Shown here piece by piece: positions 1 to 22,871 of a stretch of DNA of 22,871 nt (positions are counted from its first letter, which is position 1; each line of letters begins with the position of its first letter). The notes beneath the pieces were generated by a model. It was not told the DNA's origin. It did no database searches and saw only the letters and a program-made list of their open reading frames with translations. The stretch is taken from positions 1 to 22,871 of IMG/VR virus record IMGVR_UViG_3300036401_000682; one strand, given 5' to 3'. Origin of the DNA: a virus. Made by a program: the position numbers and the translations under genes.

Positions 1-572
1 AGATCGCGGCGCTGCCCACGGGGTTCATCGCCACACTGCTGGCCCGCATCGCCCCGTCCAGGCCGGTGTTCTGGATCGCCCCCGAGAGCGATCTGCATCC
101 GCCCGGCCTGCTGCCCTACGGGTTCGATCCTAATCGGTTGGTACTGGTGCGTCCGTCCAGGGACGTCGAGACGCTTGCCGCCATGGAGGTGGCGCTGCGA
201 GAAGGTGTCGCCGCCGCAGTGGTGGGCGAGGTGGGGCAGTTCGACCGCACCGCCTCGCGCCGGCTGCAGTTTGCCTGCCTGCACCGCGGCTCCACCGGCT
301 TTGTGCTGCGTCGCTGGTCGCACGGCCACAAGACCGCCGATCGGGAGACCAGTGTCGCTGTTACCCGCTGGCACCTTACTCCGATGCCCAGCGTGAAGGA
401 CGGCAAGGGACCCGGACTGCCGCGCTGGCATGTGGCGTTGACACATGCCCGCGGCGGACGGCCGGGCGAATGGATCATGGAGGCTTCGGATGAAGCGACG
501 CATCCTCTCCGTGTGGTTGCCGCACTGGCCGATCACGCGCCTGAGCCGTGGCGTCTCCGTCTCGCCGGATAG
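1..572 (+). CDS. imuA: ImuA, SOS mutagenesis accessory protein (5' end cut off)
   Basis: The reading frame is open from base 3 of the window to a TAG at 570-572, giving 189 visible residues. The start codon lies upstream of the window. ImuA is a RecA/SulA-like accessory protein that works with ImuB and DnaE2 in damage-induced mutagenesis. The visible part contains the family's features: a FWIAPESDLHPPGL segment, the LPYGFDPNRLVLVRP strand, a conserved RLQFACLHRGSTGFVLRRW core, and a C-terminal RGGRPGEW segment ending in RLRLAG. Identification rests on these segments and on the imuB and dnaE2 genes directly downstream. The last 83 nt overlap imuB in another frame, so the two are probably translationally coupled. 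The promoter, where a LexA box would be expected, is not in the window. Confidence 0.88.
   Translation, partial: IAALPTGFIATLLARIAPSRPVFWIAPESDLHPPGLLPYGFDPNRLVLVRPSRDVETLAAMEVALREGVAAAVVGEVGQFDRTASRRLQFACLHRGSTGFVLRRWSHGHKTADRETSVAVTRWHLTPMPSVKDGKGPGLPRWHVALTHARGGRPGEWIMEASDEATHPLRVVAALADHAPEPWRLRLAG
479..483 (+). promoter_or_regulatory. Ribosome binding site of imuB
   Basis: A GGAGG lies 6 nt before the ATG at 490, inside the end of imuA. It decides the imuB start in favour of 490 over the more upstream in-frame start at 445, because the protein from 490 begins with the family-typical MKRRILSVWLPHWPITR. Confidence 0.7.
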
Positions 573-2022
573 GCCGCTGGTCACCATCGAGGCCATCCGT
601 GGCGTACGGCATCTGGTCGCGGTGGGGGAGCACGGCGAGGCACAAGGGCTGCGCCTGGGGCAGACGCTGACCGATGCGCGCGCTGTCTGCCCGACGTTGA
701 TCCCTGTCGATGCCGATCCAGCGGCCGACGAAGCCGCGCTGGGCAGGCTCGCCGCCTGGTGCGAGCGCTTCACGCCCATGGCGGCGCCCGATCTGCCGGA
801 TGGGTTGTGGCTGGATATCACCGGCTGCACCGCGGTGTTCGCGACGGAAGCGGAGTTGGCGCGGGCTCTTGCTGCGCGTCTGGCGTGGAATGCCATCCCC
901 TGCCGCGTGGCGGTTGCCGGGACGACCGGGGCCGCCTGGGCACTGGCGCATGCCGGGGTGGATCGGACCATTCTGCCATCGGGAGAGGAAAAGGCGGCGC
1001 TGGCCGATCTGCCGATCACCAGCCTGCGGCTCGACACCGGCACGGTGACCGGGCTGCGCCGGCTTGGCCTGCGGACGGTGCGGGACCTGCTGCGCATTCC
1101 GCGGCCGCAGATCACGTCTCGGTTCGGCGCCATGCCGGTGCTGCGGCTCGATCAGGCGCTGGGCGCGATGGAGGAGGCCATTGACTGGCCTCGGCCGCTG
1201 ATCGGGTGGAATGAGCGTCTGGCCTTCGCCGAACCGATCGGAACGCCAGAGGATCTCGCGCGTGCGCTCGCGCAGCTTGCGGAACGGCTATGTCGGCGGC
1301 TGGCAGAGCAGGACAAAGGCGGTCAGCGCTTCGTCGCGCGGTTCTTCCGCGTCGATGACGTTGTGCCGCAGATCACGGTGAGCACTGCACTGCCGGCGCG
1401 CGATGCCACCTATCTGACCAAACTGCTGGGCGAGAAACTGGACACCGTCGATCCAGGCTTCGGCATCGAGGTGATCGTGCTGGAAGCCGAGACCGTGGCA
1501 CCACTCTCGGTGCCGCAGACCCAACTTGCCGATGTCGCTGCGCAGGAGGCGAGCGACCGTCTCACTGGTGTGGTGGATACGCTGACAAACCGCCTGGGTT
1601 TGGATCGGGTTTCTCGTGTCGCGCCGTTTGGGAGCCACGTGCCGGAGCGTGCCGTGCAAAGCATACCGCCACTGGCGCTCAGGCAGCCATCCTGGGTGGA
1701 CGATCCCGCCGCGCCGCGGCCGATCCGCCTGTTGCGTCGGCCGGAAGAGATCGAGGTGATCGCCCCCGTGCCGGACGATCCGCCCATCAGGTTCCGCTGG
1801 CGCGGTGTGTCGCATCGTGTGTGCGCCTCCGCCGGTCCCGAGCGGATCGCCGCCGAATGGTGGCGCGCCAAGCGATCCGGTGGGGGGCGGCCGGAGACGG
1901 ATCTGATTCGCGACTATTATCGGGTGGAGGATTCCGACGGCGCTCGGTTCTGGATCTTCCGCGCCGGTCTGCATGCCGCGGACCGGATGCCGCAGTGGTA
2001 TTTGCATGGGCTGTTCGGGTGA
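490..2022 (+). CDS. imuB: ImuB, Y-family polymerase-like mutagenesis protein
   Basis: This 510-aa protein is a Y-family DNA polymerase homologue that is not thought to polymerise itself. It acts as the adaptor that recruits DnaE2 to the beta clamp. The N-terminus carries the ImuB hallmark WLPHWPITR (residues 9-17). The position where active Y-family enzymes have their SIDE catalytic motif reads GLWLDITG (105-112). A helix-hairpin-helix-like stretch (about 173-213, LRRLGLRTVRDLLRIP) follows, then the little-finger region and a C-terminal ImuB-specific tail ending in RMPQWYLHGLFG. I chose ATG 490 for its GGAGG site and because upstream residues do not fit the family. It overlaps imuA by 83 nt and dnaE2 by 17 nt, consistent with one operon. 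Confidence 0.92.
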   Translation: MKRRILSVWLPHWPITRLSRGVSVSPDRPLVTIEAIRGVRHLVAVGEHGEAQGLRLGQTLTDARAVCPTLIPVDADPAADEAALGRLAAWCERFTPMAAPDLPDGLWLDITGCTAVFATEAELARALAARLAWNAIPCRVAVAGTTGAAWALAHAGVDRTILPSGEEKAALADLPITSLRLDTGTVTGLRRLGLRTVRDLLRIPRPQITSRFGAMPVLRLDQALGAMEEAIDWPRPLIGWNERLAFAEPIGTPEDLARALAQLAERLCRRLAEQDKGGQRFVARFFRVDDVVPQITVSTALPARDATYLTKLLGEKLDTVDPGFGIEVIVLEAETVAPLSVPQTQLADVAAQEASDRLTGVVDTLTNRLGLDRVSRVAPFGSHVPERAVQSIPPLALRQPSWVDDPAAPRPIRLLRRPEEIEVIAPVPDDPPIRFRWRGVSHRVCASAGPERIAAEWWRAKRSGGGRPETDLIRDYYRVEDSDGARFWIFRAGLHAADRMPQWYLHGLFG

Positions 2023-5000
2023 TTTGATTCTCCCCTCCTCCCAAGGATATGCCGAACTGCAGGTGGCGAGTGCGTTCTCCTTCCTGCGCGGCGCTTCATC
2101 GCCGGAGGAACTCGCCGCCACCGCGTCAGTGCTGGGGCTTTCCGCCATCGGCATCACCGATCTCAACAGCGTGGCCGGCGTGGTGCGGATGTGGGATGCG
2201 GCGAAGGCGGCCGGCGTTCGGCTGGTGGTCGGCGCGCGCCTGTCATTCCGCGACGACACGCCGGATCTGCTCTGCTATCCGCAGGATCGGGCGACGTGGG
2301 GACGCTTGGCGCGTCTGCTCACCGTCGGCAAGGGACGTGTGCCACATGGCGACACCGGCGGTGCTGCGAAAGCCACCAATCGCTGCTTCCTGCACTACAC
2401 CGATCTGCTGGAGCATGGCGAAGGGCAGCTTCTGCTTGCTGTCGCGCCGGATCGATTGGATGTTGGCTTCCGGGAAAATCTCCAGCGCCTGCAATCGGAT
2501 TTTCGCGGCCGGGCGTTTCTTGCCGCCAGCCGCCGTTATCGTGGTGACGATGCCAACCGCTTGCGCGCAATGGCCGAACTGCCGTTGCCGATGGTGGCGA
2601 CCAACGATGTGCTCTATCATCTGCCTGACCGGCGTCCGCTGCAGGATGTGATGACCTGCATCCGTCTCGGCTGTCGCATCGACCAGGCGGGCCGTGCATT
2701 GCAGCCCAATGGCGAGAGGCATCTGAAGTCGCCGAAGGAAATGGAGCGCCTGTTCCGCGAATATTCCGAAGCGGTGCGTCGCACAGAAGACATCGTTGAG
2801 CGCTGCGGCTTCTCGCTTGGGGAACTCGCCTATGAATATCCCGACGAACCGATTCCGCCCGGTCTGACGCCGGACGAGCACCTTGCCGATCTGACCTGGC
2901 AAGGCGCGGCGGTGCGTTATCCCGAGGGAATCCCGCTGCGTGTGCGCGATACCATCGAAAAAGAACTGTGCATCATCGCGCAACTCAACTACGCGCGGTA
3001 TTTCCTGACGGTGCATGACATCGTGCGCTACGCTGTCAGCCGCGGCATTCTCTGCCAGGGGCGTGGCTCGGCTGCCAATTCCGCGGTGTGCTATTGCCTG
3101 CATATCACCGCGGTCGATCCGGCACAGATCGACGTGCTGTTCGAGCGCTTCATTTCCACCGAGCGGCGCGAGCCGCCGGATATCGATGTGGATTTCGAAC
3201 ACGAACGCCGCGAAGAGGTCATCCAGTACATCTACGAGCGCTATGGCCGCGAGCGTGCGGGCATCGCTGCGACGGTGATTCACTACCGGCCGAAGCGGGC
3301 CATCCGCGAGGTAGGCAAGGTGATGGGGCTGTCGGAGGACGCCACTGCCGCGCTGTCGGCGCAGTCATGGCATGCGGGCGGGGAACTCTGGTCGGATGAT
3401 TGTCTGACCGAGATCGGCCTTGATCCGCAGAGCTTTGTGGTTAGCCGCTCGATCGAGCTGGCGCGCCAGCTTGTCGGATTGCCGCGTCATCTGTCGCAGC
3501 ATGTAGGCGGCTTCGTACTGACACGTGGTCGACTGGATGAGACCGTGCCGATCGGCCGGGCAGCGATGGACCAGCGCACCTTCATCGAATGGGACAAGGA
3601 CGACATCGACCGGCTGGGCATCATGAAGGTGGATGTGCTGGCGCTCGGGATGCTGACCTGCATCAGGAAGGCGTTCGAGCTGTTGGGGATCAAGAACCTG
3701 GCCGGAGTGCCGACGGAAGACACGGCCGTCTACGACATGCTGTGCCGCGGTGATTCGATCGGCGTGTTCCAGGTGGAATCGCGCGCGCAGATCAACATGC
3801 TGCCACGGCTGCGGCCGCGCGAATTCTATGATCTGGTGATCGAGGTGGCGATCGTGCGTCCCGGGCCGATCCAGGGCGACATGGTGCATCCTTATCTGCG
3901 CCGGCGGCAGGGACTGGAAGAGCGGGATCTGCCGTCACCCGCGCCTGAATATGGTTCCGCTGATGAACTGGAGCAGGTGCTCGGGCGGACATTGGGTGTG
4001 CCGCTGTTTCAGGAGCAGGCGATGCGCATCGCCATCGATGCGGCTAAGTTCACGCCGGAGGAAGCCAACCAGCTACGCCGCTCGATGGCGACGTTCCGCA
4101 ACTCGGGCACCATCCATCGTTTCTTTGAGAAGATGGTTTCTGGCATGACAGCGCGCGGCTATGCGCAGGACTTCGCCGAACGCTGTTTCCATCAGATAGA
4201 GGGCTTCGGCACCTATGGTTTCCCGGAGAGCCATGCCGCCAGCTTCGCTCTGCTGGTTTATGTCTCGGCCTGGCTGAAATGCCACCACCCGGCAGCGTTT
4301 GCCTGCGCGCTGCTGAACTCGCAGCCGATGGGGTTCTATGCGCCAGCACAGATCGTGCGCGATGCGCGCGAGCATGGGGTGGAGGTACGGCCTATCGATG
4401 TGGCCGCCAGCGGATGGGACTGCACTTTGGAAGAGGGAGCGCTGCGTCTCGGTTTTCGTCTGATCAATGGATTTTTGCAGGAGTGGGCGGATCGGTTGAT
4501 CGAGGCTCGGGGTTCTTCTTTTGCTGCTTTTTCGTTTGCCGAACTGGTCCGCACGGGCCTTCCTCGCGCCGCCCTTGTCATGCTCGCCGAGGCTGATGCG
4601 CTGCGGAGTCAAAAACTCGATCGGCGAGCCGCGCTGTGGCAGGTACGCGGCTTGTCGGACGTGGCGGAGCTGCCCCTGTTTGCCCACCAGCCGGTTGCGA
4701 TTCACCATGTTCCGCTGCCCGTCATGACGACGGGCGAGCACGTCATCACTGACTACCAGACCGCCGGCCTGTCGCTGAAGTCACACCCGATGCGTTTCCT
4801 GCGCACGCTGTTCAATGGCGAAGGCGTGTTGAGCTGCGCCCAGGCCGCGGTGCTGGCTGATGGCACCCGGCTTTCCGTCGCCGGCGTGGTGCTGGTGCGC
4901 CAGCGGCCGGGCAACGGCAACGTTGTTTTCTGCACCATCGAGGACGAGACCGGCATCGCCAACATCGTGGTCTGGTCCAGCCTGCTCGAGCGATTCCGCC

Positions 5001-5215
5001 GCGCCATGATGGGCAGCAGCCTGCTGCTAGTGACCGGTCGTCTGCAACGCAGCCCGGAGGGCATCATCCATGTCATCGCCGAGCGGCTGGACGACCGCAG
5101 CGCCATGATGGCGCGTCTCCCCGAGACATCGGCCACCGTTGGAAGGCTGCCGATGCGAAGCCCCGGCCATCCTCGTCAGGAGCGGATTTTTCCCCGCTCC
5201 CGAGACTTCCACTGA
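2006..5215 (+). CDS. dnaE2: DnaE2 (ImuC), error-prone DNA polymerase III alpha-type subunit
   Basis: This is a C-family error-prone polymerase of 1069 aa from ATG 2006, the usual DnaE2 size, and it performs translesion synthesis together with ImuA and ImuB. The PHP domain opens with YAELQVASAFSFLRGAS and has ITDLNSVAG (about 50-58) where replicative DnaE has a TDH motif; this loss is typical of DnaE2. The catalytic aspartates are in PDIDVDF (near 391-397) and in KVDVLALGM (Asp near 543). The conserved YGFPESHAASFALLVYVS and a C-terminal OB-fold (about 960-1050) follow. The protein ends in SRDFH as expected, so the gene is complete. The start is uncertain: TTG 2024, just after the imuB stop, is an alternative. 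It is the last gene of the operon and converges on the phage-type endolysin 11 bp away. Confidence 0.95.
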   Translation: MGCSGDLILPSSQGYAELQVASAFSFLRGASSPEELAATASVLGLSAIGITDLNSVAGVVRMWDAAKAAGVRLVVGARLSFRDDTPDLLCYPQDRATWGRLARLLTVGKGRVPHGDTGGAAKATNRCFLHYTDLLEHGEGQLLLAVAPDRLDVGFRENLQRLQSDFRGRAFLAASRRYRGDDANRLRAMAELPLPMVATNDVLYHLPDRRPLQDVMTCIRLGCRIDQAGRALQPNGERHLKSPKEMERLFREYSEAVRRTEDIVERCGFSLGELAYEYPDEPIPPGLTPDEHLADLTWQGAAVRYPEGIPLRVRDTIEKELCIIAQLNYARYFLTVHDIVRYAVSRGILCQGRGSAANSAVCYCLHITAVDPAQIDVLFERFISTERREPPDIDVDFEHERREEVIQYIYERYGRERAGIAATVIHYRPKRAIREVGKVMGLSEDATAALSAQSWHAGGELWSDDCLTEIGLDPQSFVVSRSIELARQLVGLPRHLSQHVGGFVLTRGRLDETVPIGRAAMDQRTFIEWDKDDIDRLGIMKVDVLALGMLTCIRKAFELLGIKNLAGVPTEDTAVYDMLCRGDSIGVFQVESRAQINMLPRLRPREFYDLVIEVAIVRPGPIQGDMVHPYLRRRQGLEERDLPSPAPEYGSADELEQVLGRTLGVPLFQEQAMRIAIDAAKFTPEEANQLRRSMATFRNSGTIHRFFEKMVSGMTARGYAQDFAERCFHQIEGFGTYGFPESHAASFALLVYVSAWLKCHHPAAFACALLNSQPMGFYAPAQIVRDAREHGVEVRPIDVAASGWDCTLEEGALRLGFRLINGFLQEWADRLIEARGSSFAAFSFAELVRTGLPRAALVMLAEADALRSQKLDRRAALWQVRGLSDVAELPLFAHQPVAIHHVPLPVMTTGEHVITDYQTAGLSLKSHPMRFLRTLFNGEGVLSCAQAAVLADGTRLSVAGVVLVRQRPGNGNVVFCTIEDETGIANIVVWSSLLERFRRAMMGSSLLLVTGRLQRSPEGIIHVIAERLDDRSAMMARLPETSATVGRLPMRSPGHPRQERIFPRSRDFH

Positions 5216-5226: not shown

Positions 5227-5817
5227 TCAACCTACCGGCGAGGCCGCGGTCCCCGATGATGCCGGCTGGATCGATTGATCGAGATAACCTGCGTTGGCTG
5301 CCTCGTACGGCAACCTGCACAGACGACGAGCCCAGCCGATGCCGAACGTCTTCCAGGTCGCCAGCGATGACATGAACATCAGCCGTTGCGCGAGGTATTC
5401 GACGCAGAGGTCAGCGACGCCATCCGGTCCAGCGGCAGCCCGATCAATGGCGCTTAGGGTCTGCTCGCCGATCATACCATCCTGGCGTACCTGAGCGACC
5501 TGCTGCAGCCAACGTGCCGCGCGACCGGTACCGTTATTGATTGCGGCGTCGAACACGAGAAGAGCGACCGCGGAAGGCAAGCGATCACCCGCGATCCGCT
5601 GCCAGTAGTCGTGCTGGTAAAGTGCCTTCGCAGCATCGAGGGAGAGGTTTGCGATATCCAGGTCGGGGTAAGCCGCAGCGCTGATACCGAACCTGGTTCC
5701 GCGACAGATGCCGGCGCCGATCGTGCCGCCGGTCCAGTTGCCGGGGTCGGAGGGATTGGCAGTGAAGTCGCCTTCATGACCCACCACGATATCGAACATT
5801 CGGTCGAAGTTGCTCAT
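5227..5817 (-). CDS. GH108-family endolysin (N-acetylmuramidase-type)
   Basis: A 196-aa peptidoglycan hydrolase. The N-terminal glycoside hydrolase family 108 domain has the catalytic Glu in VVGHEGDF (E15), followed by NPSDPGNWTGG and GTRFGISAAAYP (41-51), the long variant of the family's DPGG-T-GI motif. The C-terminal half has the peptidoglycan-binding type-3 pattern VFDAAINNGTGRAARWLQQV (88-107) and DGMIGEQTL. There is no signal peptide or membrane segment, so release to the wall would need a holin or cell lysis, and I see no holin next to it. ATG 5817 lies 5 nt after the stop of the esterase gene. Upstream in-frame residues look like read-through of that gene and were excluded. It is the last gene of the tail operon. 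A baseplate-associated role is less likely than lysis. Confidence 0.88.
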   Translation of the reverse strand: MSNFDRMFDIVVGHEGDFTANPSDPGNWTGGTIGAGICRGTRFGISAAAYPDLDIANLSLDAAKALYQHDYWQRIAGDRLPSAVALLVFDAAINNGTGRAARWLQQVAQVRQDGMIGEQTLSAIDRAAAGPDGVADLCVEYLAQRLMFMSSLATWKTFGIGWARRLCRLPYEAANAGYLDQSIQPASSGTAASPVG

Positions 5818-5822
5818 ACCGG

Positions 5823-7904
5823 TCAGCCGGGGCTGTCGCTCAGTGCGATCGGCGTCGACGTGGCAGCGAGCGGGAAGTTGAGATTCCAACTCGTGGCGAG
5901 ATCGGCGCCGATATCCCAGCCCGCCGGCTTTGCTTTGGTCGAAGCGTTGTCGGTCACGGCGTTACCGTGGCCGATCCGGGCGGAGCCGTACGGGTAGAAC
6001 AGCAGGCACGACGCGCCGGCGTTCACCAGGGGGGCATCGAGCGTCAGCAGCAGATGCGTGGGATCGACCCGCGCACATCCCGTGGCGTGACGCAGCGGGC
6101 CGGGTGACGCGACTGATCCACCGTCCATCACGACGAAACCGGTTCCGTTCGACGCGGTACCGCCCAGCAGGAGATCGTCCCCGGTGTCGTGCTGTACGGT
6201 AAGCACGACGTGCGTCGCGTCCTGCCTGGATGCGTGGACGATCGTCGGGCCGCCCACAGTTGGGATGCCGGGAGGGATCGCTGAAAACGTGTCGCCACCT
6301 GAGGCAGCAAGGACTGCATGCGCGACGACGGGTGCCGCCCGCTGACCCAGCATGATGTTGTCCGTGACGGCGATGTGGCTGTTGTCGCCGCTGCGTGCAT
6401 CGACGTCGGCCGTCATCGGAAGCCCGATGACAACGTTTTGCGTGCCGTCCGCCGCCATCGACGCGGCGACCTCACGCACCATTTGGACGCCTGGGTCGCT
6501 CCAGAACGGCATGGCGTTCCACCAGATCAACGGCAGGTTCTTGGCACTGCGGCCGAGCATGCCGCGCAGCTTCGCCAGAAGGTTGCTGGCGCCGTCGTGG
6601 AAGAAGGCCTTTTCCGAGTAGGCGCGGGTGGAATCGGTTTCTGACCAGGGCCAGAGGATTGCGGCAATGTCGGCCAGGTCTGCTGCGGCCTGCTGACCGA
6701 GATAGGTCTGCACCGCGTTGCCGTCGTTGCCGAGACCGTAGCTCGCCGGGTCCGACCCGTCGGCTGGGTTATGCAAGAACTCGCCTGGCAGATACACCAG
6801 CGATCCGGTGTTCGGCGGCTGGCGCACGTCATACACGCCGTGCCCCCCGATGCAGGTGTAGGCGCCGCTCGAGCCGTACAGGCCCATTACGCCGTACGCC
6901 AGCGCCCCAAGGTGCCAAGCCACGCCCTGCGCCAGCAGGTGCCACGCGCCGTCGTTGAGGCCATTGCCGGCGTTTGACTGGCCGACCACCAGAATCTGCA
7001 CGCCCTTGCGCACGCCGCGCTGCCAGCGTGCCGCGCAGGCAAGCAAGGTGGTGATTTCGGGTGACGTGATCGCGCGCGACCAGCTGGCGGCCTCATGGAA
7101 CCAGCATTGGGCGCCACCCTGGCTGACACCGGAATGGAGGACGAACAACCCACCTGACGCGTTGGCGGACAGCGGACTGGCTACACCGCTTGCCACTTGG
7201 TTGCCGTCAAGCCAGGCATCGACGCCAGCGCCTGGTGTGTTGCGGATGATGATCGAGTGGGTGTGCCGCCGCTCAAGCGATGAGGTGAGGACCCGCATAG
7301 CCGCGCCGGAAAACAACATAAGGCGGTCGCCTGCGCCGCTCACACCATCTGCCTGAAGGATGGTTGTCCCGCCAGCGCTCAGGAGCGTGACCGGCCCCGT
7401 GACACCCTGGCGCCAGTTCGGCCGCGACCAGACCAGATACCACGTCCAGCCAACTGCGGCGCCAAGATTGGCCGTCGCAAGGCAGAAACCCTGATCGGGA
7501 TCAAGCTGCGGCAGATAGCAGCCGGATTGCGGAATTGCATTTGGTGGAACCACCGTATTGAGGCCGACACCGCCAAGCAATGCATTCAATCGTGGGGTTG
7601 CCTGCGGCAATGCGCTGCCGCTGACACGGTATGCCGCCAGCGCATTGCCGTTGCCGCTCTTGTCAGCGACGCTCGCCGCGGGGTTGTTCCACGCCGGGAG
7701 GGGACGTGCGCTTCCGTCAAGCAATCCATCGAACGTGCCTGCATCCCACCACCCCGAGATGCCAGAGATGGCGCTTGGATAGGGGCCTGCGAACGTGCCG
7801 CCACCAACACCGCCACCACTCGCACCGCGCAATGCCCGCCACAACGCGGCGCGACCGCTCGCGAAGAGCATGGCGCGACCAGGTGCAGCGAGTGCTATGC
7901 CCAT
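5823..7904 (-). CDS. Tail protein with LamG-like domain and SGNH/SASA-type carbohydrate esterase
   Basis: A 693-aa protein from ATG 7904, 7 nt after the stop of the fibre gene before it; the ribosome site is weak. Residues about 48-296 look like a concanavalin/LamG-type beta-sandwich (GWWDAGTFDG, DKSGNGNALAAY, TWYLVWSRPNW, WLDGNQVASG). Residues about 300-535 form an SGNH hydrolase of the acetylesterase (SASA) kind: nucleophile Ser310 in VVGQSNAGNG, a WPWSETDS block (418-425) in place of the family's W-x-GE-x-D, and the Asp/His pair in GDNSHIAVTD (D507, H510). The C-terminal region (about 540-693) resembles an Ig-like beta domain. The inferred role is de-acetylating a host surface polysaccharide during adsorption. 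The catalytic set is visible; the substrate is not known. An additional 38 in-frame codons upstream overlap the preceding gene and are unlikely to be used. Confidence 0.82.
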   Translation of the reverse strand: MGIALAAPGRAMLFASGRAALWRALRGASGGGVGGGTFAGPYPSAISGISGWWDAGTFDGLLDGSARPLPAWNNPAASVADKSGNGNALAAYRVSGSALPQATPRLNALLGGVGLNTVVPPNAIPQSGCYLPQLDPDQGFCLATANLGAAVGWTWYLVWSRPNWRQGVTGPVTLLSAGGTTILQADGVSGAGDRLMLFSGAAMRVLTSSLERRHTHSIIIRNTPGAGVDAWLDGNQVASGVASPLSANASGGLFVLHSGVSQGGAQCWFHEAASWSRAITSPEITTLLACAARWQRGVRKGVQILVVGQSNAGNGLNDGAWHLLAQGVAWHLGALAYGVMGLYGSSGAYTCIGGHGVYDVRQPPNTGSLVYLPGEFLHNPADGSDPASYGLGNDGNAVQTYLGQQAAADLADIAAILWPWSETDSTRAYSEKAFFHDGASNLLAKLRGMLGRSAKNLPLIWWNAMPFWSDPGVQMVREVAASMAADGTQNVVIGLPMTADVDARSGDNSHIAVTDNIMLGQRAAPVVAHAVLAASGGDTFSAIPPGIPTVGGPTIVHASRQDATHVVLTVQHDTGDDLLLGGTASNGTGFVVMDGGSVASPGPLRHATGCARVDPTHLLLTLDAPLVNAGASCLLFYPYGSARIGHGNAVTDNASTKAKPAGWDIGADLATSWNLNFPLAATSTPIALSDSPG

Positions 7905-19968: not shown

Positions 19969-21000
19969 TCAGGAACCAGTGGGAGCGCCAGGATAAATTG
20001 CGCTCATGCGCGGATCGATGCCCGTCGTCATCGCGCCTGGGCGCGAGGCATATTTTTCGAGGTGATCGATTACCCATTGGCCGAGTTGAGCACCATCCAG
20101 GATGATCGTGCCTTGCCTCGGCTCTGACTCGGCCTGCGGCGACTCCGCGGGAGCTGCTCGCGACTGTGGTACTTCTGGCTGTGCGGCCATGTCGGGACTG
20201 ACATTGAGCGGCTCTGCCGTGTTGGAAACGACCCTGTCCGGCGGCGCGACATTTTGTGTCGCGAAGGTGGGTAGTGTCGATTGTGACGTAAGGCCCGGGG
20301 CCACCGCACCAATGACAATCCGCTGCAGCAGTGAGTTCTCCCGAGGTGTCCCGATGTTATCAGTGGCGGTGGTTGGTGCTATCGGAACTGGTTGCGCGAT
20401 GGCTTGCGGCAGCAATGATCGGATCAACACATCATTATCGGGAGCACTCGATGGTGACGGCGCATGGTCGGACGCCGCGACGCTCGGTGGCGGCTCGACG
20501 GAAGCTGGCGCCGCAGGCGCAGCCACTACGCCAGGAACAAGGGATGCGATGGGTGTCGTCAACTGTGGTGGCTTGCGCGGTGTAATCGCGGCGCTTTGAC
20601 TCGCCACTTGGTGAGGTTCAATCAGGCTTGCGTCGGGTCGTGGCATCGCCAATGTCCGCGGGGGCTGGGCTTGATCCAGCTGCACTTGCGGTTTGGGAAC
20701 ATCGTCAGCAGTCGGCCAGTATGCCGAAGGAGTGTGAGCCCGTTCTTGCGCGGAGCTCCATTGTTCCCCACGCTCGTCGTGGGGGTGTGCAGCACGTGTC
20801 GGCACGCTTATTGGTGCGGCGTTGATGTCGAATGCGCTCAGCCGCTCGCCGAGGTGCGTCATGGTCTCTAACATCGCTCCACTGGAAGCAACAGTGCGCC
20901 CCAGTGCCATCAGCTCCCGTTCGGCCATGGTGATTGCACCGGACACGCCATGGCTGAGTGCGAGTCTGGCGCCGATCGCCGGGGGGTCATTATCGGTCAC
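19969..21000 (-). CDS. Short Pro/Ala-rich protein in the tape-measure position
   Basis: A 343-aa protein from GTG 21000, which overlaps the frameshifted chaperone end by 11 nt. Three parts are visible. Residues 1-60 are helical (GAITMAERELMALGRTVASS, MLETMTHLGERLSAFDI). Residues 60-300 are low complexity, rich in Pro, Ala, Ser and Gln. Residues 300-343 (GTIILDGAQLGQWVIDHLEKY, MTTGIDPRMSAIYPGAP) look folded. The gene follows the chaperone, where all known long-tailed phages encode the tape measure, and the rest of the operon has no other candidate. It is much shorter than usual tape measures (often 600 aa or more), and has no obvious transmembrane helix. Tape measure is therefore an inference from position. 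Confidence 0.55.
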   Translation of the reverse strand: MTDNDPPAIGARLALSHGVSGAITMAERELMALGRTVASSGAMLETMTHLGERLSAFDINAAPISVPTRAAHPHDERGEQWSSAQERAHTPSAYWPTADDVPKPQVQLDQAQPPRTLAMPRPDASLIEPHQVASQSAAITPRKPPQLTTPIASLVPGVVAAPAAPASVEPPPSVAASDHAPSPSSAPDNDVLIRSLLPQAIAQPVPIAPTTATDNIGTPRENSLLQRIVIGAVAPGLTSQSTLPTFATQNVAPPDRVVSNTAEPLNVSPDMAAQPEVPQSRAAPAESPQAESEPRQGTIILDGAQLGQWVIDHLEKYASRPGAMTTGIDPRMSAIYPGAPTGS

Positions 21001-21169
21001 TCTCGACTACCCAACGCAGTGTGCGCCAATCGAATGTTCTGCCATCCAATGAGCCAAGTGCGACAACGAATGCCATCCGTTCATCGGTCGGCAGGCTAAA
21101 AGCGACGTCGAAAGGCACCCCGTTCCGGACCAGATAGAGGCAGTCGATCAGGTCGGGGTGCCTGCTCAG
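20990..21169 (-). CDS. -1 frame extension of the tail assembly chaperone (G-T type fusion)
   Basis: A 59-residue segment with no start of its own, entered by a -1 slip at the 3' end of the 115-aa chaperone frame. The joined product is 174 aa. It reads LIDCLYLVRNGVPFDVAFSL, MAFVVALGSLDG and FDWRTLRWVVE, which is the typical C-terminal module of the frameshifted chaperone in alphaproteobacterial contractile phages. The stop TAA is at 20992-20990, 8 nt inside the next gene. Coding potential is supported by this conserved-looking sequence. Confidence 0.82.
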   Translation of the reverse strand: MSRHPDLIDCLYLVRNGVPFDVAFSLPTDERMAFVVALGSLDGRTFDWRTLRWVVESDR

Positions 21170-21175
21170 TTTCCC
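21114..21175 (-). promoter_or_regulatory. Programmed -1 ribosomal frameshift signal
   Basis: The slippery heptamer GGGAAAC (21175-21169) sits in phase as G GGA AAC and is followed at once by the 0-frame TGA (21168-21166). After a 6-nt spacer comes GGCACCCCG (21162-21154), which pairs perfectly with CGGGGTGCC (21122-21114), a 9-bp stem with a 31-nt loop. All parts of a canonical -1 signal are therefore present at the expected spacing. Confidence 0.85.
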
Positions 21176-21513
21176 GCCGTGTCTACCATCTCGGCTGTAG
21201 TGGTTTCCGCAGATTGCTCCAGCACCTGCGCAATCGCCGCGACCCCCGTATCGCCGAGGCGGCCAATCATGGCTTCTATCTGGAGTTCATTGGATGGTGA
21301 AGGTATCGGAACATTGTCGATGGCAGCCACCGAACAGGCGATGAGTGCCATTCCCAGCCATGGCTGATTCTGTGCGAGTGCTGGGCCGGCCGCCTTGAAC
21401 AGCCTGAGCCTATCGAGTGCAGTAAGCCGCCTGATGGTGAGGCGCCGGCCATTGCCGTCGAGGACATTCTCGGTGGTGGCGGCGACCGCGACTATGGATG
21501 CAGACGGGGTCAT
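21166..21513 (-). CDS. Tail assembly chaperone, short (0-frame) product
   Basis: A 115-aa protein (gpG/Mu gp41 type). The visible pattern is a beta-strand start (IVAVAATTENVLDGNGRRLTI), RRLTALDRLRLFKAAGP, a helical WLGMALIACSVAAID, and an acidic C-terminus with IEAMIGRLGDTGVAAIAQVL. These chaperones hold the tape measure and recruit tube subunits during tail assembly; the short and frameshifted forms are made in a fixed ratio. Its ATG overlaps the tube stop as TGATG, a sign of coupling. Confidence 0.8.
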   Translation of the reverse strand: MTPSASIVAVAATTENVLDGNGRRLTIRRLTALDRLRLFKAAGPALAQNQPWLGMALIACSVAAIDNVPIPSPSNELQIEAMIGRLGDTGVAAIAQVLEQSAETTTAEMVDTAGN

Positions 21514-21941
21514 CAGATGCGGCGCCTACGGACGGCGAAGAATTCCAGCTTTTGCCTGACGCTGCTGTCACCCTTCCAGATCCCGGCATTACTCAGTTTG
21601 AATGTCACGCTGTCATATTGGTAGGTGGATGTGGATCCATTTGTCTCAGTGACATACTGGTACATAGTGCTGGGCGGCGGGTTGCTGCCGTTGAAGTATT
21701 GCTGCTCAGCCGCAGCAATGAAGTCATCGACGGTCGAGTTGCCGCGCTCGAGCTCGAAGCTGCCCTCCCAACCTTTGGGCAACTCGGTGCCCAAGTGGGT
21801 GCCATCCAGCCTGTCCACCCGTACCGATTGGGTTATCTGGCGGCTGTCGAACGACGTGACGTGGGTCAGGTCGATCCGTCCGGTTGGGCCGATCAGGACC
21901 AACTGCGTGTCACGGCCGATAGAGAACATGGTCAGAGACAT
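21513..21941 (-). CDS. Tail tube protein
   Basis: A 142-aa protein, of normal tail tube size, placed directly after the sheath as in contractile phages. It is beta-rich (TQLVLIGPTGRIDLTHVTSF, WEGSFELERGNSTVDDFIAA, YQYDSVTFKLSNAGIWKGDS) and ends in a basic RRRRI tail. GRIDLTHVTSFD followed by QSVRVDRLDG and GWEGSFELER is the form seen in tube proteins of this group. A strong AAGGAG ribosome site overlaps the sheath stop, which would suit the high expression a tube needs. Confidence 0.82.
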   Translation of the reverse strand: MSLTMFSIGRDTQLVLIGPTGRIDLTHVTSFDSRQITQSVRVDRLDGTHLGTELPKGWEGSFELERGNSTVDDFIAAAEQQYFNGSNPPPSTMYQYVTETNGSTSTYQYDSVTFKLSNAGIWKGDSSVRQKLEFFAVRRRRI

Positions 21942-21953
21942 CCGGTTAGCTCC

Positions 21954-22871
21954 TTACGCCGCCTGGCCACTCGGCAGAGTCTGGCGGGACACCTGCACGG
22001 TCTGACCGCCTTCCATGTTGACGATGAACTTCTCGTTGATTGCCTGGTATTGCACCTGCGCATCTGATTGAACGTAGCCGAGATCGGTCCGGCTGGGGGG
22101 ATTGTTGGACGTGTCACAGATCACGCTGAAGGGCAGGCTGCCGTCCGCGCTGCCAAGCAAACCCTGCCCGAGCATGTTCTGCAGAAACGCCAGCTGCGTG
22201 GCGCGTATCCTGCGGAACAAGTCCGCGGTGATCACCTGACCGACGTATTGACCCATACCAGCTGAAAGCGTCGCCGCGATGTAGTTTGTCAGGCGTGTGT
22301 AATTGTCTCCGCTGACGGCGGCATTGGATGACGAGTTGTGACCACCACGCACGCCCCAGAAATTGCCGCCAGGCTGTGGATTGCTGACCACATCGATGCC
22401 CGCGCTCAACAGTGCTGCGAGGTCCGCGGACGAATAGGAAGCGCTCTGGCCCGAACCCGGTGTGCCGGACTTCTGGCTGCCGATGACACTGTAGAGTTGC
22501 TTATTGAGGCTGGACTGTTCAGGTGAGAGGTTCGCCAGGCGCCCGGCAGTAAACCCCTGCGGCGATACCAGGCGGATTGCACCATTGACTTGATCGGACC
22601 ACCATAGCCAGTCACCGAACATCAGTTTCGCTGCGTAACTGTCCAGCCCCGCCTGCTGTTTGACGGTGACGGCGTTCTGGATGCTGTCGCCGGCCGGACC
22701 CGTGAGGACCATGTAGATGCCTTCCTCGAGTCCGAACTCGGCCTGTGTTGTCCAATAGTCGGGATCATCGGCGTCCGATAACGTTGCAATCCCGCAATCC
22801 TGGCCGCGCAGTGCATACAAGCCAGAGCGCGGCGGGATATCGGCGCCGACGAGGCTTGTTACCGTAACGCT
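21954..22871 (-). CDS. Tail sheath protein (N-terminal part beyond the window)
   Basis: The frame is open from the right window edge to TAA 21956-21954, giving 305 visible residues; the start is not in the window. The C-terminal sheath domain is visible as YTRLTNYIAATLSAGMGQYV, then ITADLFRRIRATQLAFLQNM and LGYVQSDAQVQYQAINEKFI (a strand that inserts into neighbouring subunits). Upstream is a subtilisin-like-fold-type sheath core with SYSSADLAALLSAGIDVVSNP and NFWGVRGGHNSS. Contraction of this protein would drive the tube and spike into the cell. Identity is well supported by the sequence and by the tube gene that follows. Confidence 0.9.
   Translation of the reverse strand, partial: SVTVTSLVGADIPPRSGLYALRGQDCGIATLSDADDPDYWTTQAEFGLEEGIYMVLTGPAGDSIQNAVTVKQQAGLDSYAAKLMFGDWLWWSDQVNGAIRLVSPQGFTAGRLANLSPEQSSLNKQLYSVIGSQKSGTPGSGQSASYSSADLAALLSAGIDVVSNPQPGGNFWGVRGGHNSSSNAAVSGDNYTRLTNYIAATLSAGMGQYVGQVITADLFRRIRATQLAFLQNMLGQGLLGSADGSLPFSVICDTSNNPPSRTDLGYVQSDAQVQYQAINEKFIVNMEGGQTVQVSRQTLPSGQAA

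Follow-up and report, generated by a model that had tools for sequence, protein, structure and literature searches.

Programmed −1 ribosomal frameshifting in tail assembly chaperone genes is a well-established class (PMC5009743; PMC10885494; PMC3711429), with the G/GT gene of phage lambda as a described member (Xu, Hendrix and Duda 2004, as cited in PMC5009743). In the model described for lambda the two products divide the labour, with the tape measure protein bound by the short form and tube subunits brought in by the fusion (PMC5009743). Frameshifting of 6-7% was measured for two HK97-like cases (PMC3711429), and phages of Caulobacter and of haloarchaea are on record with GGGAAAC or AAAAAAC sites (PMC3556154; PMC5009743). 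The chaperone pairs of phiCbK and Colossus, which are alphaproteobacterial (Caulobacter) phages with AAAAAAC and GGGAAAC sites (PMC3556154), resemble the gene described below in these slippery sites. Direct homologues are found in the Komagataeibacter phages phiKX1, which can be induced with mitomycin, and phiKX2; the phages induced in that survey were myovirus-like, and the paper, which deals with temperate phages of Acetobacteraceae, mentions neither frameshifting nor the chaperone (PMC8566455). Comparable by description are phage-like regions of Acetobacteraceae from Sphagnum metagenomes, in which structural, packaging and lysis genes are flanked by host genes without an excision or replication module and for which frameshifting is not discussed (PMC12142844). 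The original prediction had supposed that the element is undescribed in this host family, and a literature search likewise found no description of a tail-chaperone frameshift in Acetobacteraceae. Because −1 frameshifting in tail chaperones is so widely described, what is new here is confined to the lineage and to a hairpin that is absent from Rfam; the frameshift class itself is known.

The window analysed is a 22 871 nt stretch of viral DNA (IMG/VR record IMGVR_UViG_3300036401_000682, positions 1 to 22,871). Its contractile-tail genes lie on the minus strand, beginning with the C-terminal part of the tail sheath (21954..22820; phrog_23, tail sheath, E = 1.6e-27), which is cut by the window end. 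The tail tube protein (21513..21941) was assigned by position and synteny (phrog_12993, E = 2.9e-42, a family without a function name), and is followed by the 0-frame tail assembly chaperone of 115 aa (21166..21513). The next ORF (19969..21000, 343 aa) occupies the tape measure position and is identified by that position only, with no family match in Pfam or PHROGs. The order sheath, tube, chaperone, next ORF is constant among relatives. The 343 aa ORF is short for a tape measure position and has a proline-rich middle, and it may point to a short tail or an unusual ruler. In phiKX1 an ORF shortly downstream of the chaperone region matches phrog_28 (tape measure), and the tape measure candidate of this phage is 742 aa long.

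By comparison with homologues the chaperone gene almost certainly contains a programmed −1 ribosomal frameshift, the signal for which was read from the sequence as follows. The heptamer GGGAAAC lies at 21175-21169 (minus strand) with its first G as the third base of a codon, so that the 0 frame reads GCG GGA AAC TGA; the phase is thus X_XXY_YYZ (here G_GGA_AAC), and the stop codon TGA (21168-21166) stands directly 3′ of it. In the −1 frame, read from CTG at 21169, no stop intervenes for 59 codons until TAA (20992-20990) is reached; the coding part of this extension (20990..21169) stops 8 nt inside the next ORF (GTG at 21000). The predicted products are 115 aa (0 frame) and 174 aa (−1 fusion). 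A spacer of 6 nt which includes the stop codon (21163..21168) separates the heptamer from a perfect 9 bp stem with a 31 nt loop, formed by GGCACCCCG (21162-21154, 5′ arm) and CGGGGTGCC (21122-21114, 3′ arm), both on the minus strand. All of these elements, the reading frames and the predicted product lengths had been proposed in the original prediction and were recovered at the same positions. Taken from this single sequence, the fold at the stem has an energy of −29.3 kcal/mol (z = −2.15), and seven of 200 shuffles do as well; since the fold is only moderately better than shuffled sequence, the stem would not be proven from the window by itself. A search of Rfam 15 at the gathering score gave no match in the window.

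If the signal works as in other members of the class, the two tRNAs would slip in tandem by one base back, from GGA-AAC to GGG-AAA, with the helix acting as the stimulator of slippage. A minority of ribosomes would thereby produce the 174 aa fusion, and for the others translation would end at TGA. If lambda gpG/gpGT is taken as the pattern, the tape measure protein would be bound by the short form and tube subunits brought in by the long form, with both departing ahead of tail completion. Of the heptamers A_AAA_AAG and A_AAA_AAC the former is by far the more slippery in E. coli (PMC5009743), so the efficiency of frameshifting in the present host is not to be assumed.

Like the window gene as predicted, lambda G/GT encodes a short chaperone and a −1 extended one and has an X_XXY_YYZ heptamer near the 3′ end; it lies between the tube and tape measure genes, as the window gene would if its neighbours are what their positions suggest; the tail chaperone of P2 is named together with it as the frameshift class into which the window gene would fall. 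The lambda heptamer is G_GGA_AAG and thus differs from the present one, and the window gene is further set apart from lambda G/GT by its contractile tail and by a covarying stem at 6 nt. There is hardly any sequence relation between the two (phrog_508, tail chaperone, E = 0.13 for the 0-frame protein). The 0-frame protein has no Pfam family match, and its best PHROG is phrog_20383 (E = 1.5e-19), a family of unknown function. Its predicted structure (mean pLDDT 86.7) resembles that of the HK97 chaperone: the best solved matches are the HK97 chaperone (PDB entry 2OB9, Z = 5.8) and YqbN (PDB entry 3KLU, Z = 5.5), both at 10-11% identity. These scores are modest, as a Z below 8 is not proof and 5.8 lies under the level that the tool calls safe; unrelated structures scored 2.8 or less, the exception being a PICI protein from Vibrio (4.9). 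The top matches also included several viral models that bear the name tail assembly chaperone. The identity as a tail assembly chaperone that had been proposed for this gene is therefore backed by gene position, by the frameshift and by the modest match of the model, and remains the best reading of the predicted protein.

Viral contigs and genome contigs were scanned for homologues, yielding 166 chaperone loci, the named hosts of which are mostly Acetobacteraceae (Rhodopila, Acidisphaera and further genera). The duplicate of the window was left out and 165 loci were examined; five run off a contig end, leaving 160 that could be judged. Of these, 156 carry XXXAAAC in phase close to the 0-frame stop and four are irregular. 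The 156 loci collapse to 131 unique sequences, in which the heptamer is GGGAAAC (126) or AAAAAAC (five). The 0-frame stop abuts the heptamer in 82 of the unique sequences, follows 18 nt later in 48 and 21 nt later in one; an abutting stop is hence not essential to the family, 49 of 131 members having it 18-21 nt downstream. The −1 extension is 41-63 codons long in the 131 sequences, most commonly 57. A few broken homologues were also seen: the heptamer is short of one A in L029 and missing from L189, and the 0 frame stops early in L060 and L093. These irregularities are consistent with decay or assembly error. The alignment of homologues on which the original prediction could have failed thus shows the heptamer and spacer kept, a 0-frame stop retained 0-21 nt after the heptamer and, as described below, a stem that is kept with compensating changes.

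Selection was evaluated in 99 non-redundant homologues (less than 93% identical over 120 nt). On the 3′ side of the slip the −1 frame is free of stops and has a pN/pS of 0.29, compared with 1.33 for the 0 frame and 2.40 for the +1 frame; coding selection in the −1 frame only argues that the −1 product is made and selected. The overlapping −1 ORF is thus under coding selection and in most homologues has no start codon of its own. The phiKX1 record annotates separate hypothetical proteins, with a 59 aa CDS of its own in this place, unlike the fusion proposed here, and would fit a separate gene that is reached by reinitiation or from its own start. In 111 of the 131 unique homologues, however, the −1 frame contains no ATG, GTG or TTG ahead of the slip; in 78 of these the first start codon lies 51 nt past the slip, behind conserved residues, and in some homologues a −1 stop stands just 9-12 nt upstream of the slip. 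An independent start therefore cannot yield the conserved domain, and nothing in such a gene would keep a heptamer in phase, which makes a separate gene highly improbable. A single gene split by pseudogene formation or sequencing error might be suspected from the few broken homologues, but unrelated assemblies supply 131 unique sequences with the same layout, and purifying selection acts on both frames; this account is almost vanishingly improbable. That the −1 product arises by transcriptional rather than ribosomal slippage is suggested by the run of six A in the AAAAAAC version, whereas the runs in GGGAAAC are only three long and the heptamer phase and the stem 6 nt behind it fit ribosomes; it is regarded as extremely improbable.

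The role of the stem was considered separately, since the residues specified by its arms, R-H-P-D and N-G-V-P, are those most conserved in the −1 domain, and sequence conservation alone therefore proves no RNA role. The stem might accordingly be a by-product of the conserved protein (RHPD...NGVPF), with the heptamer alone driving slippage. In the 99 non-redundant homologues 99.0% of stem cells pair, so that the uncompensated loss of pairing that would have told against the stem was not found. The codon entropy at the wobble sites of the arms is 0.26 of background versus 0.89 elsewhere (p = 2e-7): the codon for valine 18 is GTG in 99 of 99, that for glycine 17 is GGG in 90% (background 26%) and that for histidine 4 is CAC in 98%, whereas the wobble base of proline 19, just outside the stem, is free. 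At proline 5, replacement by alanine (codon GCC) or by serine (codon TCC) goes along with a change in the wobble base of glycine 17 that keeps the pair; this pair, 19-57, is CG in 88 sequences, GC in six, UA in three and the intermediate UG in one. Compensatory changes occur in four of the nine pairs in distant relatives (15-61, 16-60, 19-57 and 22-54), and the relatives that carry them span Alpha-, Beta- and Gammaproteobacteria. Pair 15-61 changes from GC to CG in distant relatives, and pair 16-60 from CG to AU in Pantoea and Aquitalea and to GC in L202. The covariation score of the stem (0.278) exceeds all of 500 shuffles (mean 0.113) and every slid control (at most 0.088); the shuffle test is inflated by the kinship of the sequences, while the slid controls carry equal kinship and score far lower. 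In one homologue (L203, 961-1039, minus strand) the letters of GGCACCCCG are kept although a missing spacer base shifts the reading frame of the 5′ arm, which then specifies other amino acids while the stem is unchanged; this locus is a natural separation of RNA from protein constraint. A protein by-product is thus very unlikely. Both covariation and synonymous constraint are present in the 3′ RNA structure behind the heptamer, and by this comparative evidence the helix is under selection as RNA.

The extension itself was modelled with AlphaFold2 from 39 homologues as a compact helical C-terminal domain (mean pLDDT 91.8), and the chaperone-like C-terminal module that had been predicted for the −1 frame is conserved across homologues. 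The −1 domain of the window has no match in Pfam or PHROGs and its relatives give weak, unconvincing matches. A Foldseek search with this domain found nothing in the PDB and gave weak matches to viral models, the best being an unnamed protein of 49 aa (probability 0.99, E = 0.14); the tail chaperone of the Rhodobacter phage RcRhea was listed at E = 2.0.

A covariance model built from the alignment was run on 299 Acetobacteraceae genomes and matched 112 of them. In 85 genomes there are 88 tail tube loci at about 55% identity or more, and for 86 of these a strong match of the covariance model lies within 1.5 kb; the remaining two are a locus split over contigs and a locus with a weaker match nearby. 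With the same spacing, AAAAAAC takes the place of GGGAAAC in more distant prophages of the family, in phiKX1 and in plasmid-borne phage regions of Pantoea and Aquitalea; phiKX1 combines AAAAAAC, TGA and the 6 nt spacer with the same 9 bp stem as the window. The heptamer is AAAAAAT on the Rhodovastum plasmid pg. On Rhodovastum plasmid pd (RHOApd; L169, 12004-12351) the usual heptamer and stem are absent, an in-phase CCCTTTG precedes the stop by 25 nt and the −1 frame remains open. With the Pantoea chaperone as the query, no relative was found among phage records.

The genes belong to a cluster (window 445-22820; L142 and L146-L161; G001:C146:127869-151999; G002:C75:174631-198886) that in relatives is compact and runs from terL through portal, capsid and contractile tail to fibres, with host genes directly at the flanks. 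At the left end of the window, a virus-database contig, are the host genes imuB and dnaE2; at the right end the contig breaks off in the sheath. Because it is without head genes a tailocin was suspected at first; this was rejected, as longer relatives have terminase, portal and capsid, and the window is therefore merely cut at the sheath. An endolysin of the glycoside hydrolase 108 family lies between dnaE2 and the fibre genes (window 5227-5889), and in G006 its place is taken by another gene, lysozyme-like and weakly matching the pesticin domain. The mutagenesis genes imuB-dnaE2 adjoin the cluster in the window (445-5215) and in G001:C146, G006:C50, G097:C24 and G156:C92, and recA adjoins it in G002, G003, G008, G104 and G204; this association with SOS-type loci may have a meaning or be a coincidence. 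The cluster was found in 85 of the 299 sampled Acetobacteraceae genomes (about 28% of the sampled species) and is single-copy in 83 of the 85 carriers. Among the matches listed for 13 genomes, which concern integrases of the tyrosine type, none lay within 40 kb of the cluster. The capsid gene is intact and conserved in relatives, and capsid distances correlate moderately with RecA distances (r = 0.45; 0 of 2000 permutations as high).

The cluster may encode a domesticated particle, for instance a gene transfer agent; a prophage family that is defective or in slow decay is another possibility. The searched passages of PMC9662315 showed no contractile-tailed type among formally classified gene transfer agents. 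It is possible, if rather doubtful, that host selection in Acetobacteraceae keeps the cassette because it serves a contractile-tail particle that has been domesticated and is passed on vertically, such as a myovirus-type gene transfer agent, the related prophages of the same family using an AAAAAAC version.

The homologues described here add a large and cleanly testable family to the tail-chaperone frameshift class, with a hairpin that has unusually direct comparative support from covariation together with frozen wobble sites. The natural variants (GGGAAAC or AAAAAAC, a stop at 0 or 18 nt, altered pairs) make the roles of stem, heptamer and stop separable. Annotation would be corrected by adding the long product, which is missing from the phiKX1 record and from the plasmid records examined. 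To the carriers, assembling tails from this phage-like cluster apparently still matters, given how strictly the signal is kept up in it and that the cluster is single-copy.
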